Shown piece after piece: positions 49,403-55,196 of a DNA stretch of 64,000 nucleotides (positions within the stretch are counted from its first letter, which is position 1; every line of letters begins with the position of its first letter). This DNA is from Sphingobacterium sp. SGG-5. GTDB taxonomy: Bacteria; Bacteroidota; Bacteroidia; Sphingobacteriales; Sphingobacteriaceae. Both the position numbers and the translations under genes were made by a program. The stretch lies in the NCBI RefSeq assembly GCF_011043525.1, contig NZ_JAAKGO010000003.1:186001-250000 (forward strand), in the 5' to 3' direction. Below the pieces are notes generated by a model. The model was not told the origin of the DNA and did not search any database. It saw only the letters and a program-made list of their open reading frames with translations.

Positions 49403-50488
49403 TTATCGATAAGCTTGCTGTTTGAGCAGGTGATCTGCAATAACAAGAGCAGCCATAGCCTCGACGATAATCACGGCACGGGGTACTACACAGGGGTCGT
49501 GTCTTCCTTTACCTGAGATTGTTGTTTCTTCACCGGCCTGATTCAAGGTCTGCTGATCGCGCATAATGGTGGCCACAGGTTTGAACGCTACCCGAAAAGT
49601 AATGTCCATCCCGTTGGATATTCCACCTTGTATGCCCCCCGAATAGTTGGTCCGCGTGATGACTTTATCATCTTCATGTGTGAAGATGTCATTATGCGCG
49701 GTACCTCTTAATCTGGATCCTTCAAATCCCGAACCATATTCAAAACCGTGTACCGCATTGATGCTCATCATAGCCTTTGCCAGATCAGCATGTAATTTGT
49801 CAAACACCGGTTCGCCCAGTCCTACAGGCACATGACGAATGATAGTCGAGATACGTCCTCCGACGGTATCACCGTCTTTGCGTACGCCATCGATAAAAGC
49901 GATCATCTCCTGGGCTGTTGCCGGGTCGGCACAACGCACAATATTGCTTTCACGTGTTTCCAGTAGCGTATTTAAATTTGATGAATCCACATTCGGAGCT
50001 TCGATGTCTCCAACACCGGAGACATGTGCGAAAATTTCAATACCGTGTTTTTTCAAAAACAGCTTTGCAACAGCACCCGCAGCTACACGGGCCGCTGTCT
50101 CCCTGGCTGATGAACGTCCGCCACCCCGATAATCGCGGATGCCGTACTTCATTTGATAGGTATAATCGGCGTGCGATGGGCGGTATTTATCACTGATATG
50201 GGAATAGTCTTTGGAACGTTGGTCTTCGTTGGGAATGATGATAGCTATAGGCGTTCCGGTAGATTTTCCTTCAAAAACCCCCGATAGGATCTGAGCGGTA
50301 TCACTTTCTTTACGCTGCGTTGTGATCTTCGATTGCCCCGGTCTCCGCTTATCCAGTTCGGACTGAATAAAAGCTTCATCGATTTCGATGTTGGAGGGAC
50401 ACCCATCCAGAATGACTCCTATGGCCTTGCCATGTGATTCGCCAAAGGTGCTGATCTTAAATATATCTCCAAATGTATTTCCTGCCAT
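49403..50488 (-). CDS. aroC: Chorismate synthase
   Basis: 361 residues starting [25 protein letters not shown]. Conserved blocks are [48 protein letters not shown] and [22 protein letters not shown]. It makes chorismate from EPSP using reduced FMN. ATG 50488 is the start: the frame continues upstream only through intergenic repeats. It is the last gene of the pheA-DAHPS/CM-aroA-aroC order, 89 bp after aroA. Confidence 0.97.
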
Positions 50489-50501
50489 TTTCTTATTTTT
50501 A

Positions 50502-50556
50502 GTATTGCGATGTGCGTATTTCGTATTGCGATGTGCGCCTGCCTGCGGTAGGCAGG
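50502..50556. repeat. Intergenic tandem repeat and small inverted repeat before aroC
   Basis: GTATTGCGATGTGCG occurs at 50502-50516 and 50523-50537 (21-bp period). ATTGCGATGTGCGC is found again at 39274-39287, at the murI start. Directly after the second copy lies CCTGCCT-GCGGT-AGGCAGG (50538-50556), a 7-bp hairpin. These look like dispersed intergenic repeat units. Confidence 0.75.
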
Positions 50557-50577: not shown

Positions 50578-51825
50578 TTATTGAATTAAAAAACCTTGCT
50601 GCTGCAGGTGGTCCCAATAGGCCGGATACGATTTTTCGACGACCTGCGGTTCTTCGATATGAACACGGTCAAAGACTAATGCCAAAGGTGCGAAGGCCAT
50701 GGCCATACGATGATCTTCATAGGTCGCTATGCTTATATGTTCAGGTTGAAACACTTGACTGCTGTCCAAATGATAAACAGCATTGTCTTCCGTCAAGACT
50801 GCTCCGAATTTGCCAATTTCATTTTGCAAAGCCGCAATACGGTCCGTTTCTTTGATCTTTAATGTTTCCAGTCCAGTAAAGGATACGTTTTTTCGTAAGG
50901 CTGCCGCAACGACGACAACGGTTTGGGCCAGGTCGGGACATTCTTTAAAGTCAAATAAGGTTTTATCTGATGATGCTTCCGTCTTCTTTAAATAGATGCC
51001 TTTTTCTTCAAATACCGTTTCCACACCGAAATGCTGCATGATATCTACAATGGCGATGTCGCCCTGAAGACTGTTTTTTTTCAAGCCCGGCAATCGGATT
51101 TCTCCGTTCTCCGACAAAGCAACCATAGCATACCAATACGAAGCTGCGCTCCAGTCCGGTTCGATATAAAGCGTTGCTTCTTTTGCCTTTTGCGGCTGTA
51201 TCTGTATCTGCTGACCGACCCAGTTGTGTTGTATACCTGCTTCGGCGAGCATATGGAGTGTCATGGTGACGTACGGTCTGGATGTTAGCTCGCCATCGAT
51301 TTCCAGCGTGAGTCCTTTCTTTAATGAAGCAGCGCTCAGTAGCAAAGACGAAATATATTGGCTGCTGATATTGCCTTTTATCCTGACCGTGTCTTTATGT
51401 TGAAACAGCTTGCCTTCAATATGTAAGGGTGGAAAACCGGATTTTTTCTGGTAATGTATATCTGCCCCGATTTCTTTCCAGGCATCGACCAATATACCAA
51501 TCGGACGCTGCTGCATGCGCTCCGTGCCGGTCAGTATAAAGTCGCCCGGCAATAAGTTGAGGTACGACGTCATAAAACGCATCGCCGTACCCGCCGGACC
51601 GATATCAATGACAACCTGTCCTTTCCCGGCTTCGTTGGCTGCCGCGATGGCACGCGTCAATAATACCGTATCATCCGCTTCCGACAGATTGGCAATCTGC
51701 ACTTTCCCCTCGCTTAAGGCTTGGATAATCAGTGCACGGTTGCTCTCGGATTTCGAACCCGTAAGCTGCACCGTGCCCTTGATCTCCTTTGCAGGATGTG
51801 TAAGCTTTATGCTCGTTTGGCTCAT
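50578..51825 (-). CDS. aroA: 3-phosphoshikimate 1-carboxyvinyltransferase (EPSP synthase)
   Basis: 415 residues. Key regions are [13 protein letters not shown] near the N-terminus (catalytic Lys), [16 protein letters not shown] (PEP-binding loop), [52 protein letters not shown] and [15 protein letters not shown]. It joins PEP and shikimate-3-phosphate. The C-terminal end is a few bases from the intergenic repeats before aroC, and its start is 4 bp from the stop of the DAHP synthase gene, so the two are in one operon. Confidence 0.96.
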
Positions 51826-51829
51826 TATG

Positions 51830-52936
51830 TTATGCCTCCGTTGCTGTTTTTTCGTTCATGACCTCATTCTGCTTGCGGATAGACTCATTGTGCAATAGCT
51901 CTAAATATTTCACGGTGAAATCTTCGCCCAGGTTCAATGCTTTGGCCAGTTGGACTCTTTTTTGAACAATTTCATCCCAGCGTGAAACTTGAAGGATGGT
52001 GACGTTATTGTCGCGTTTATATTCACCGATTTTCTCGGCAATCTTCATGCGGTCACCGATTTGTTTGATGATCTGATCGTCCAATTTATCGATTTGCTTA
52101 CGGAGCTCGGCCAGTTTATCTTCAAACGCCGGATTGTTTGATTCGGCATGGCGAATGGCCAGATTGTCCAATAATTCGGCTAATGCTGCCGGGGTAACTT
52201 GTTGCTTGGCATCGGTCCAGGCTACGGATGGATCAATATGGGATTCGATAATCAAACCTTGCATATCCATATCCATCGCTTTTTGTGTGATGTAAGGAAT
52301 CAACTCCCGGTTACCACAGATATGGCTAGGGTCATTGATGATCGGTAAATCCGGAGCAATTGTTTTTAATTGGATCGCTAAATCCCACATCGGCTCATTA
52401 CGGAAGGCTGTTTTCTCGAAAGAAGAGAAGCCCCGGTGAATGGCACCTATTTTCTTGATACCTGCACGGTTGATGCGTTCGAGCGCACCGATCCATAAAG
52501 ATAGATCAGGGTTGACCGGGTTTTTCACCAAAACAGGAACATCTACACCTTGTAGAGCGTCTGCTATCTCTTGTACGGTAAAAGGATTTGCCGTAGAACG
52601 AGCGCCTACCCAAAGGATATCTACACCTGCTGCTAAAGCTTCTTCTACATGCTTTGCGGTAGCCACCTCGGTAGCGGTTAGCAATCCTGTTTCTTCTTTC
52701 GCTCTTTTTAACCACTGCAAACCGATGTTGCCGATACCTTCGAATTCACCCGGACGGGTGCGTGGTTTCCAAATACCCGCACGCAGTACGTGAACTTTCC
52801 CGGTATTCGCCAGCAAATGAGCCGTCGATACCACTTGCTCTTCGGTCTCTGCACTGCATGGACCCGCTATGATTAAGGGTTGGTCGCCTGTATCTATCCA
52901 AGAACTAAGCGGAAGGATTTCTAATGAATGTTTCAT
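51830..52936 (-). CDS. Bifunctional DAHP synthase / chorismate mutase
   Basis: 368 residues. The N-terminal part (about 1-265) is a type I-beta, KDSA-like DAHP synthase: PLIIAGPCSAETEEQV, LRAGIWKPRTRPGEFEG, WVGARSTANPFTVQEIA, PVLVKNPVNPD, IHRGFSSFE, DPSHICGNRELI and GLIIESHIDP. The C-terminal part (about 275-360) is an AroQ-type chorismate mutase (LAELRKQIDKLDDQIIKQIGDRMKIAEKIGEYK). It thus carries the first step of the shikimate pathway and the step to prephenate. It lies between pheA and aroA and probably depends on the pheA attenuator. Confidence 0.95.
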   Translation of the reverse strand: MKHSLEILPLSSWIDTGDQPLIIAGPCSAETEEQVVSTAHLLANTGKVHVLRAGIWKPRTRPGEFEGIGNIGLQWLKRAKEETGLLTATEVATAKHVEEALAAGVDILWVGARSTANPFTVQEIADALQGVDVPVLVKNPVNPDLSLWIGALERINRAGIKKIGAIHRGFSSFEKTAFRNEPMWDLAIQLKTIAPDLPIINDPSHICGNRELIPYITQKAMDMDMQGLIIESHIDPSVAWTDAKQQVTPAALAELLDNLAIRHAESNNPAFEDKLAELRKQIDKLDDQIIKQIGDRMKIAEKIGEYKRDNNVTILQVSRWDEIVQKRVQLAKALNLGEDFTVKYLELLHNESIRKQNEVMNEKTATEA

Positions 52937-52954
52937 ATCTTATACTATAAATTT

Positions 52955-53008
52955 GTAACTCTATAACTACGTAACTCCATAACTGTGTAACTACGTAACT
53001 CTGTGACC
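52955..53008. repeat. 8-bp tandem repeat between pheA and the DAHP synthase gene
   Basis: Seven consecutive 8-bp units of the form (G/A)TAACTnn, the last degenerate (GTGACC), fill most of the 74-bp gap between the two genes. Exact units include GTAACTCT, ATAACTAC, GTAACTCC and ATAACTGT. No coding or terminator function is apparent. Confidence 0.8.
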
Positions 53009-53010
53009 AA

Positions 53011-53835
53011 TTAAACCTTTTCGTTCTTAATATATTCTCCCATGATGCTGAAGTTGACCGTATGTTTCAATACTTTACGGATAGCGGCATCATAGTCGGA
53101 TTGCTTTTTCCATTCCACATCGACGTAAAAGTCGTATTCATTCCGACGGCCGACGACCGGCATAGACTGGATCTTGCTCAGGTTTACATTTTGCTCTGCA
53201 AAACATTGTAAGACCGTAGCGAGAGCACCCACCGCATTTCCGGTCTGAAAAGATAACGATGCCTTATTGGCATTCTTCTGTTCCACCACTTCGTTGGAAA
53301 GGATCAAGAACCGGGTTGCATTTTTCTTATGCGTTTCGATACGTTTCTCCAAAATCTGCAAACCATAGGTTTTGGCAGCATACTCACTGGCAATCGCTGC
53401 TGTCGTGGTGAGTTTTTCCTCCATAATCTTTTGGGCACAGCCCGCGGTATCCATTCCTTCCTTAACTTCCCAATCCGGGTGGTCGCTCAAGAACTCGTCA
53501 CATTGACGGATGGCGATCGGGTGGGATTCCACGGTTTTAATGTCACTCAACTTGACTCCCGGCAGGGCGAGCAGATTCTGTTGGATAATCAGATGCACTT
53601 CCCCGATGATGTGAAACCGATAATCACGCAAAAGATTATAATTTGGTAAAATGCTTCCCGCAATAGAATTCTCTATGGCCATGACCACGTAATCGGCTTT
53701 GCCTTGCTTGAGCATCTCGCAGGTTTGTTTGAACGAACTGCACTCGATGGTTTCGATATCGTCCCCGAAAAATTTGAATGCTGCTTCTTCATGAAAAGAG
53801 GCTTTTACACCTTGTATTGCTATTTTAGTACTCAT
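53011..53835 (-). CDS. pheA: Prephenate dehydratase
   Basis: 274 residues. The prephenate dehydratase domain (1-180) has ASFHEEAAFKFFG, VMAIENSIAGSILPNYNLL, VESHPIAIRQC and the catalytic NATRF motif (TRF 174-176). A C-terminal ACT domain follows (about 195-274); its GALV motif is GALA (203-206) and the ESRP motif, which binds Phe, is replaced by QSMP (223-226). It makes phenylpyruvate. ATG 53835 is the start, since the frame upstream runs through the attenuator hairpin. It is the first structural gene of the aromatic operon, preceded by a Phe/Tyr leader peptide. Confidence 0.95.
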   Translation of the reverse strand: MSTKIAIQGVKASFHEEAAFKFFGDDIETIECSSFKQTCEMLKQGKADYVVMAIENSIAGSILPNYNLLRDYRFHIIGEVHLIIQQNLLALPGVKLSDIKTVESHPIAIRQCDEFLSDHPDWEVKEGMDTAGCAQKIMEEKLTTTAAIASEYAAKTYGLQILEKRIETHKKNATRFLILSNEVVEQKNANKASLSFQTGNAVGALATVLQCFAEQNVNLSKIQSMPVVGRRNEYDFYVDVEWKKQSDYDAAIRKVLKHTVNFSIMGEYIKNEKV

Positions 53836-53856
53836 TTGTCTCGTTTTTAGCCATAA

Positions 53857-53888
53857 AAAAAGTCCCAGATTTTCATCCGGGACTTTTT
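53857..53888 (-). terminator. Attenuator terminator of the pheA operon
   Basis: On the minus strand AAAAAGTCCC (53888-53879) and GGGACTTTTT (53866-53857) form a 10-bp stem with a 12-base loop, followed by more U residues, 21 bp before the pheA start. The 5' arm can pair instead with the end of the leader reading frame (CCGGGATT, 53922-53915, with AGTCCCGG, 53884-53877), which would be the antiterminator. Confidence 0.88.
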
Positions 53889-53912
53889 GTTTATGTATGT
53901 ATACAAAACCTA

Positions 53913-53978
53913 TCAATCCCGGCTCTTATTCTTAAAATAAAAGAAACCGAAGTAAAAATATGTCGTGTATTTTTTCAT
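53913..53978 (-). CDS. Phe/Tyr-rich leader peptide of the pheA operon
   Basis: A 21-codon frame on the minus strand starting MKKYTTYFYFGFFYF and ending in a basic/acidic tail with TGA. Residues 4-15 contain five Phe and four Tyr. The stop codon sits on the sequence (CCGGGATTGA) that can pair with the 5' arm of the terminator. A ribosome stalled at Phe or Tyr codons would leave this sequence free and prevent termination; a ribosome reaching the stop would cover it and allow termination. The arrangement matches classical pheL-type attenuation. Confidence 0.85.
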   Translation of the reverse strand: MKKYTTYFYFGFFYFKNKSRD

Positions 53979-53996
53979 GTCTCGAATATTACAGTC

Positions 53997-54027
53997 CAAA
54001 AGTAAGTCTAATATTTTATATCTGCAA
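53997..54027 (-). promoter_or_regulatory. Promoter of the pheA attenuator transcript
   Basis: On the minus strand TTG (54027-54025), 20 bp, then TACTTTTG (54004-53997), an exact TAnnTTTG element. Transcription would begin about 12 bases before the leader-peptide ATG at 53978. Confidence 0.75.
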
Positions 54028-54335
54028 GAATATTTTAAAAAATATTGCTTTTTATCATGTTTTTTTTGGCTTAAAATTACTGGATAAAACAAGTGTTTTT
54101 GCGTAAAAAAAATCCTGTTTTTTTAAGTGTTTAAGTTGTAAAATTCGTTTTAATCGGCTTAAATGCATTTTTATATAAAAAAATACTCATATTTTGTTTC
54201 GTTTTAATGTGTGTTTTTATGTGGTTTTTTTACGTAAAAATATGCTTGAAATACATCTATATTTATTGCTATTTCTTTATTTATTTTGGTGGATAAATGG
54301 AAATGCGCGAAACATTTCGTAGAATTGGGGCTATA
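54028..54335. other. AT-rich intergenic region without a recognised gene
   Basis: About 300 bp, very rich in A- and T-runs, between the pheA promoter and the EamA gene. A 14-bp palindrome TTTTTACGTAAAAA lies at 54227-54240, and a similar TTTTTGCGTAAAAA lies near 54094-54107. These may be binding sites, but the base bias makes chance matches likely. I see no clear TAnnTTTG promoter for the EamA gene. Confidence 0.5.
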
Positions 54336-55196
54336 ATGTGGTATGTATTATTCAGTGTTATCTGCAGTGTGACCGTTTCGGTTATCCTTAAGATGGGTAA
54401 GCGAAAGGGATTCAAACATTTGCATCTTATTGTATGGAATTATCCGGTAGCTGCTGCGGCAACTTTCTTTCTGCTGTCTCCGGAATTTCCGGATATACCC
54501 GTTCGCGATCTACCATGGGGACTTTATAGTGCACTCGCCGTACTTTTGCCGGTTATATTTATATGTATTGCGTATGCGATTGAATTCAGCGGTATCGTAA
54601 AAACCGAAGTAGCACAGCGGCTTTCCTTATTTATTCCTTTAATGGCTGCTTTTTTTATTTTCCATGAAGATATTGGATCAGGCAAATTAATCGGTATAGC
54701 CGTGGGGCTGTTGGCCATTGTATGTTCGATCGGTTGGAATAAACAAAGGGATAACACATCATCTTCGGGAAAATGGCTGTTTCCGGCATTGGTATTCGTC
54801 GGTATGGGTATCATCGATATCCTGTTCAAGAAAGTGGCGCTTTATCAGGAGACTTCCTATGCGTTTTCGATGTTTGTGATTTTCATTTTAGCGATGTTTG
54901 TGGCTACAGGAATGCTGCTGTACAAGGTATGGAGGTACAAAGAAGTGATCAAGAAGGGTACGATGGTATGGGGCATAGCGTTGGGACTATTTAATTTTGG
55001 TAATATTCTGTTCTATATGAAGGCACATCGGGCTTTACCCGAAAGCCCTTCTGTTGTATTTACAGGAATGAATATCGGTGTTATAGTTGTAGGAGCGTTG
55101 GTCGGGCTGGCTTTCTTTAAGGAGAATCTGACATTGTTGAATAAGGTTGGTTTAGCTTTAGCCCTTGTTGCTGTCTTAATTATCGCCTATCTATGA
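54336..55196 (+). CDS. EamA/DMT-family membrane transporter
   Basis: 286 residues with about ten hydrophobic helices arranged as two EamA repeats: MWYVLFSVICSVTVSVILKMGK opens the first, KWLFPALVFVGMGIIDILFKKVAL opens the second. The end FTGMNIGVIVVGALVGLAFFKENLTLLNKVGLALALVAVLIIAYL is typical of small-molecule exporters. I start at ATG 54336, where the first helix begins; ATG 54297 would add 13 residues. Substrate unknown. It overlaps the next gene by 4 bp (ATGA). Confidence 0.86.
   Translation: MWYVLFSVICSVTVSVILKMGKRKGFKHLHLIVWNYPVAAAATFFLLSPEFPDIPVRDLPWGLYSALAVLLPVIFICIAYAIEFSGIVKTEVAQRLSLFIPLMAAFFIFHEDIGSGKLIGIAVGLLAIVCSIGWNKQRDNTSSSGKWLFPALVFVGMGIIDILFKKVALYQETSYAFSMFVIFILAMFVATGMLLYKVWRYKEVIKKGTMVWGIALGLFNFGNILFYMKAHRALPESPSVVFTGMNIGVIVVGALVGLAFFKENLTLLNKVGLALALVAVLIIAYL

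Follow-up and report, generated by a model that had tools for sequence, protein, structure and literature searches.

What controls the operon headed by pheA in Sphingobacterium sp. SGG-5? Ahead of this gene, on the minus strand of the window (the whole stretch of 64,000 nucleotides that was analysed), a short reading frame dense in Phe and Tyr codons is followed by a hairpin and U residues, and the original prediction took this arrangement for a complete Phe/Tyr attenuator. The elements of the leader region and the genes behind it are as follows.

53997..54027, minus strand: promoter-like element TTG-N20-TACTTTTG (TTG at 54027-54025, spacer of 20 nt, TACTTTTG at 54004-53997), read directly from the sequence
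53913..53978, minus strand: leader reading frame MKKYTTYFYFGFFYFKNKSRD with its stop codon, read directly and translated
53923..53943, minus strand: leader-internal (1:2) hairpin, CUUUUAUU at 53943-53936 with AAUAAGAG at 53930-53923, from folding and covariation
53915..53922, minus strand: 5' strand of the antiterminator (segment 2), CCGGGAUU, from folding, covariation and arm swaps
53877..53884, minus strand: segment 3, AGUCCCGG, common to antiterminator and terminator
53855..53887, minus strand: intrinsic terminator, AAAAGUCCCGGAU-GAAA-AUCUGGGACUUUU and the remaining U-run, from folding and covariation
53011..53835, minus strand: pheA, prephenate dehydratase (PF00800, E 1.8e-59)
51830..52936, minus strand: second gene, DAHP synthase fused to chorismate mutase (PF00793 and PF01817)
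50578..51825, minus strand: third gene, aroA, EPSP synthase (PF00275)
49403..50488, minus strand: fourth gene, aroC, chorismate synthase (PF01264)

All structural elements named in the original prediction could be located. The promoter-like TTG-N20-TACTTTTG is readable at 54027-53997, and we take it to be of the Bacteroidota -33/-7 type, the consensus of which is TTG and TAnnTTTG. The leader comprises 21 codons and a TGA (start 53978, stop 53915-53913) and holds the five Phe and four Tyr that had been counted in residues 4-15: Phe stands at residues 8, 10, 12, 13 and 15, Tyr at 4, 7, 9 and 14, so that nine aromatic codons are clustered in codons 4-15 of the predicted peptide. The 10-bp terminator hairpin with its U residues corresponds to a core of 10 pairs (AGTCCCGGAT/ATCTGGGACT), including one G-U, within a fold that reaches 14 pairs because some of the U-run is paired with an A-run; U residues continue to 53855. 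Folding and covariation thus place an intrinsic terminator between the leader and the first gene. The next upstream ORF (54297-55196) points away from the leader, hence the terminator is not that gene's. A simple terminator scan of the window returned 0 sites, the pheA terminator included; this is probably because the stem absorbs the U-run, and was not counted as contrary evidence. The alternative pairing of 8 bp, one of them G-U, joins 53922-53915 to 53884-53877 and is mutually exclusive with the terminator. As predicted, the leader stop codon lies on the antiterminator strand: segment 2 ends on the first base (T) of TGA, and this 5' strand is placed where the position of a ribosome could control it. 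The fold extends the 1:2 hairpin by UUCGG (53951-53947) against CCGGG (53922-53918). With this hairpin inside the leader, the region has the full classic 1:2 / 2:3 / 3:4 layout. The leader-internal hairpin was absent from the original prediction, as were the spread across the class, the tandem copies and the leaders for Trp, Thr and His elsewhere in the genome (see below).

The operon had been said to hold both pheA and the first shikimate enzyme, and the Pfam matches bear this out, with the DAHP synthase/chorismate mutase fusion in second place. The ACT domain match of pheA fell under its cut-off. The order pheA-aroG-aroA-aroC was seen by eye, from the first residues, in 9/9 loci listed, of 110 family loci (see below). 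The top match to tyrA (prephenate dehydrogenase) in the genome is on another contig, i.e. outside the operon. Control by Phe and Tyr fits an operon that feeds both, tyrA's absence notwithstanding. Two of the intergenic gaps contain short tandem repeats, at 52945-53004 (pheA to the gene for DAHP synthase) and at 50498-50537 (aroA to aroC).

Conservation of the leader and hairpins among relatives, the check that the original prediction had proposed, was addressed in 80 pheA loci (the best of 217 in a named genome collection) and 30 from a second genome set with the genome itself included; some genomes are present in both sets, and the resulting 110 family loci hence contain duplicates. A leader was defined as an ATG-started ORF with at least 5 Phe/Tyr within 12 residues. 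Leader, promoter box and hairpin are kept in the family, and the lack of conservation that would have spoken against the original prediction was not observed. An aromatic leader precedes pheA in 110/110 loci, the own one included, and the script placed a terminator in 101/110. For one locus (L059) it chose a wrong upstream terminator, and the correct hairpin is visible in the alignment; nine others (L047-L053, L055 and L057) have a long hairpin before pheA that lacks a clean U-run. Reduced to 93 distinct regions, each covering 250-300 nt upstream, leader and terminator occur together in 84/93, compared to 2/465 dinucleotide shuffles. A leader alone appeared in 39/465 shuffles, and a correctly placed terminator thus matters. 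In 91 of the 93 regions a TAnnTTTG box is present no more than 80 nt from the leader start, at a median of 18 nt before the ATG, and in 89 of them a TTG stands 18-22 nt before the box. From residue 2 to the last aromatic residue, 76 family leaders contain about as much Tyr as Phe (280 vs 290 of 1035 residues). A covariance model (R1) built from the 91 distinct rows of alignment A1, itself from the 110 loci, matched 183/201 family genomes at E <=0.001, some of which supplied training rows; pheA was likewise found in 183/201. The lists of genomes without an R1 match and without pheA differ by one entry each: G005 is without pheA, its top match being a plain terminator, and G032 has pheA and an aromatic leader that can be read, its match being weaker (E 0.002). 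In the five rows compared by eye (G000, G127, G137, G160 and G196) the match was directly upstream of pheA.

The same arrangement is found beyond the family. Among genomes of other families in the same class, presumably Bacteroidia, pheA was found in 53, and the comparison covered every one of them; a PF00800 match was absent in 114/158 genomes of the class sample. The same script recovered leader and terminator in 36/53 of these genomes and in 0/265 shuffles. Reading by hand added three more, one with a GTG start (L161) and two with YFWFY leaders (L217 and L231), which gives 39/53, and these leader-bearing genomes fall in 15 family codes by our own count. By these criteria a leader was not found in 14/53; in seven of the 14 (L144, L154, L157, L159, L196, L220 and L228) pheA starts less than 100 nt from an upstream same-strand ORF and may thus sit inside a longer operon. 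In other classes of the phylum 1/37 genomes (L174) passed, compared to 0/185 shuffles. Three of the 53 class genomes (L149, L153 and L230) carry two aromatic leader-terminator units in tandem before pheA. All six units have a possible antiterminator of -8.3 to -24.2 kcal/mol, as calculated after lengthening the arm by 12 nt and with no swap control.

The three helices were then compared with 500 column shuffles each, a procedure that ignores relatedness, and the covariation scores of 1:2, 2:3 and 3:4 were all above every shuffle. Helix 1:2 is paired in 94.2% of cells, and 33 of its cells are double-changed where shuffles average 13.1 (0/500 reaching this value); the number of its pairs changed on both sides was 2, no more than in shuffles (1.9), 427/500 of which reach 2. 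Its strongest pair, columns 84/94, is UA in 54 rows and CG in 29, and couples the wobble position of a Tyr codon (TAT/TAC) with an A/G change slightly further along the leader, within a few codons. Covariation at this position, within a coding leader, is a sign of selection on the RNA. Helix 2:3 is paired in 88.1% of cells and has 6 pairs changed on both sides compared to 2.4 in shuffles (0/500); unpaired rows, out of 91, number 22 for pair 101/165, 19 for 102/164 and 24 for 110/158. Helix 3:4 (90.7% paired) has 129 double-changed cells as compared to 48.4 (0/500), more than either of the other helices. RNAalifold run on alignment A1 recovered the terminator alone, as expected when the alternatives overlap.

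None of the eight pairs listed reached significance in tree-aware single-pair tests, which are underpowered. Among independent pairs, changes in the same and the opposite way numbered 3.9 and 0.1 of 5 for 84/94, 3.8 and 0.0 of 8 for 158/184, 1.7 and 0.0 of 4 for 157/185, and 1.5 and 0.0 of 3 for 164/178 (G/A), and these four lean in the expected direction. The trend for 165/177 (2.2 and 1.1 of 6) appears to point weakly the same way. The tests of 102/164 (0.8 and 0.2 of 7), 106/160 (1.0 and 0.0 of 8) and 166/176 (about 1 and 1 of 3) say little.

Segment arms differ across the class (e.g. TCCCGG, GCCTCG and TCCTGAT), and the antiterminator pairing is retained despite these changes, in line with the compensatory changes that had been suggested as a check. 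This was quantified by swapping arms among 124 leaders, 36 from the class and 88 from the family. The class leaders exclude family genomes, the genome of another class (L174), the GTG-started leader (L161) and the two with fewer Phe/Tyr (L217 and L231); from the family set the nine loci without a clean U-run were left out. In the class, the native 2:3 pairing averaged -12.68 kcal/mol as compared to -8.16 kcal/mol for swapped arms, and it was stronger than its own swap mean in 35/36 leaders, best or tied-best in 12/36, with 0/5000 permutations as low. In the family it was stronger than the swap mean in only 65/88 and best or tied-best in 15/88, again with 0/5000 permutations. Segment 2 begins at a median of 9 nt past the last aromatic codon in class and family alike, which, judged by the ribosome footprint, presumably corresponds to the edge of a ribosome stalled at that codon. 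This spacing is tighter than with swapped arms in the class (SD 2.5 vs 6.9) and no tighter in the family (1.8 vs 2.0). All 124 leaders hold both Phe and Tyr, selection having been on the Phe+Tyr sum, and Trp is present in 14/36 class and 20/88 family leaders.

On the anatomy, its conservation, and the mutually exclusive pairings with their covariation, we consider it very probable that ribosome-mediated transcription attenuation takes place in this region, with charged tRNA-Phe and tRNA-Tyr as the sensed signals and the pheA-aroG/CM-aroA-aroC operon as the target. Promoter use is deduced from the box, and stalling, termination, read-through and the response to Phe/Tyr from the trp and pheL attenuators. 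RNA polymerase would start about 10-15 nt ahead of the leader, as estimated from the promoter box. With plentiful Phe-tRNA and Tyr-tRNA the ribosome would reach the stop codon on segment 2, leaving segment 3 free for segment 4, and transcription would end near 53855. Scarcity of either tRNA would stall the ribosome on leader codons 4-15, which would open the 1:2 hairpin and expose segment 2; the latter would pair with the emerging segment 3 before segment 4 exists, allowing read-through into pheA. If the leader is untranslated, the 1:2 hairpin would mask part of segment 2 and termination would be the default. Calculated folding energies are -17.3 kcal/mol for the isolated antiterminator and -19.9 kcal/mol for the stretch from 9 nt past the leader stop, terminator included, and at equilibrium the stretch freed by a stalled ribosome still adopts the terminator fold. 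As thermodynamics favour the terminator even with segment 2 free, antitermination must win kinetically, by forming first. Kinetic read-through is usual in known attenuators.

The equilibrium fold and the 129 double-changed cells of helix 3:4, the most of the three helices, would fit a constitutive terminator, the hairpin insulating or dampening pheA without sensing and the leader ORF being incidental. Such a hairpin leaves unexplained the aromatic leaders in 110/110 family loci and 36/53 class genomes, as well as an antiterminator pairing that persists across changed arms (35/36 class leaders), and we regard it as very improbable. A leader could alternatively act on translation of pheA, either through reinitiation or by exposing the start site, instead of on transcription termination. 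According to PMC4833913, leader genes near a start are proposed to boost translation by reinitiation. That the U-run is not clean in nine family loci would suit such a device. The peak in leader-gene distance that the same source gives also for Bacteroidetes is at 11-14 bp, whereas the leader stop of the present locus lies 77 nt from the pheA start, and the hairpin ends about 20 nt from the start codon with the U-run behind it; translational control is thus judged very improbable.

Riboswitches and T-boxes likewise have a terminator/antiterminator architecture, and a ligand-binding riboswitch or T-box could in principle take the place of the ribosome sensor. The leader ORF, however, fills the space ahead of the antiterminator, and what is conserved are aromatic codons and a short hairpin. 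Moreover, no Rfam 15 family reaches its curated gathering threshold in the window, in agreement with the original prediction, which was aware of no named RNA family for this element in Sphingobacteriaceae. A riboswitch or T-box is accordingly considered hardly credible. With E values of up to 10 allowed, the leader region gave 26 weak matches, among them MicC, rli38, Thr_leader and Phe_leader, all below gathering, which were judged to be chance or a shared hairpin.

Ribosome-mediated attenuation would make the pheA leader a known kind of mechanism; what appears unusual is its breadth and the dual Phe/Tyr sensing suggested by the codons. Phe_leader (RF01859) is the pheL-type attenuator of enterobacteria. 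The present leader resembles it in having a Phe-rich leader peptide, a terminator and an antiterminator before pheA, and would work alike; its score of 20 bits (E 0.36, gathering 55) places it outside that family, and it differs in that Tyr is as common as Phe and that the operon holds DAHP synthase, aroA and aroC. Thr_leader (RF00506) has the same attenuator architecture and was matched at 22.2 bits (E 0.035), also under its gathering score of 55. No report of a Bacteroidota pheA attenuator was met among the open PMC titles and abstracts listed. Work by Lopatovskaya et al. from 2010 is likely prior art and reportedly may touch Bacteroidetes. A comparable case is the uORFC-13-1 motif before aroF (PMC8632094), where a DAHP synthase gene is preceded by a terminator and a predicted uORF containing one or more Phe codons; it is described there solely for Acholeplasma and for environmental sequences. 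The histidine leaders found ahead of hisS/hisZ paralogues in bacilli (PMC2965389) are likewise leader-peptide attenuation outside Proteobacteria and Actinobacteria and differ in amino acid, gene and phylum; the main text of that paper has no occurrence of 'Bacteroid'. For B. thetaiotaomicron, PMC7366714 mentions 5' UTR sORFs that bring leader peptides to mind; its main text has no occurrence of 'pheA'.

Leaders for other amino acids are present in the same genome. A Trp leader, MMNMNKYQYWWRPEHNMLGN, precedes trpE (L194, C50 ~157031-157200, minus strand) together with a terminator and a possible antiterminator of 7 pairs. A thrA-type gene (L264, C52:73800-75400), whose frame of 818 residues contains a homoserine dehydrogenase domain, is preceded by the GTG-started Thr/Ile leader VNYNTIISTIIITTGDTIRRK, a terminator and a possible 8-pair antiterminator. 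The His leader before hisG (L191), MAALLLSHMHFHHRRCGDM, has a strong hairpin overlapping the leader end; a U-run terminator was looked for here and not found, and this leader may act by another route. Upstream of the two ilvD copies and the tyrA candidates of this genome, no leader was found in the stretch examined. Secondary R1 matches in 15 relatives, in which thrA-like genes were named from their first residues, include ATG-started Thr/Ile leaders before such genes in L247-L250, L252, L254 and L255, and a GTG-started one, read by eye, in L251. We take their composition to be thrL-like. Seven other secondary matches (L245, L253 and L257-L261) were discarded, as they resemble simple terminators.

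Taken together, we think it fairly likely that ribosome-mediated attenuation is an old and general control of amino acid operons in class Bacteroidia, with pheA preceded in many families by a dual sensor of Phe and Tyr (in some cases of Trp as well), occasionally by two in series, and with sister Trp, Thr and His leaders. If true, this would imply transcription-translation coupling at Bacteroidia leaders, in a phylum where, to our knowledge, translation initiates largely without Shine-Dalgarno sequences. As attenuation needs a ribosome close behind RNA polymerase, coupling in Bacteroidota becomes directly testable. The leader would moreover be a specific mechanism by which these bacteria regulate the synthesis of aromatic amino acids, none having been described for the phylum in the part of the open literature surveyed. 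A new Rfam family could be started from the alignment, genomes with tandem copies provide a natural experiment on what two attenuators in series do, and the leader would provide a defined control point for Phe/Tyr pathway engineering in these bacteria.
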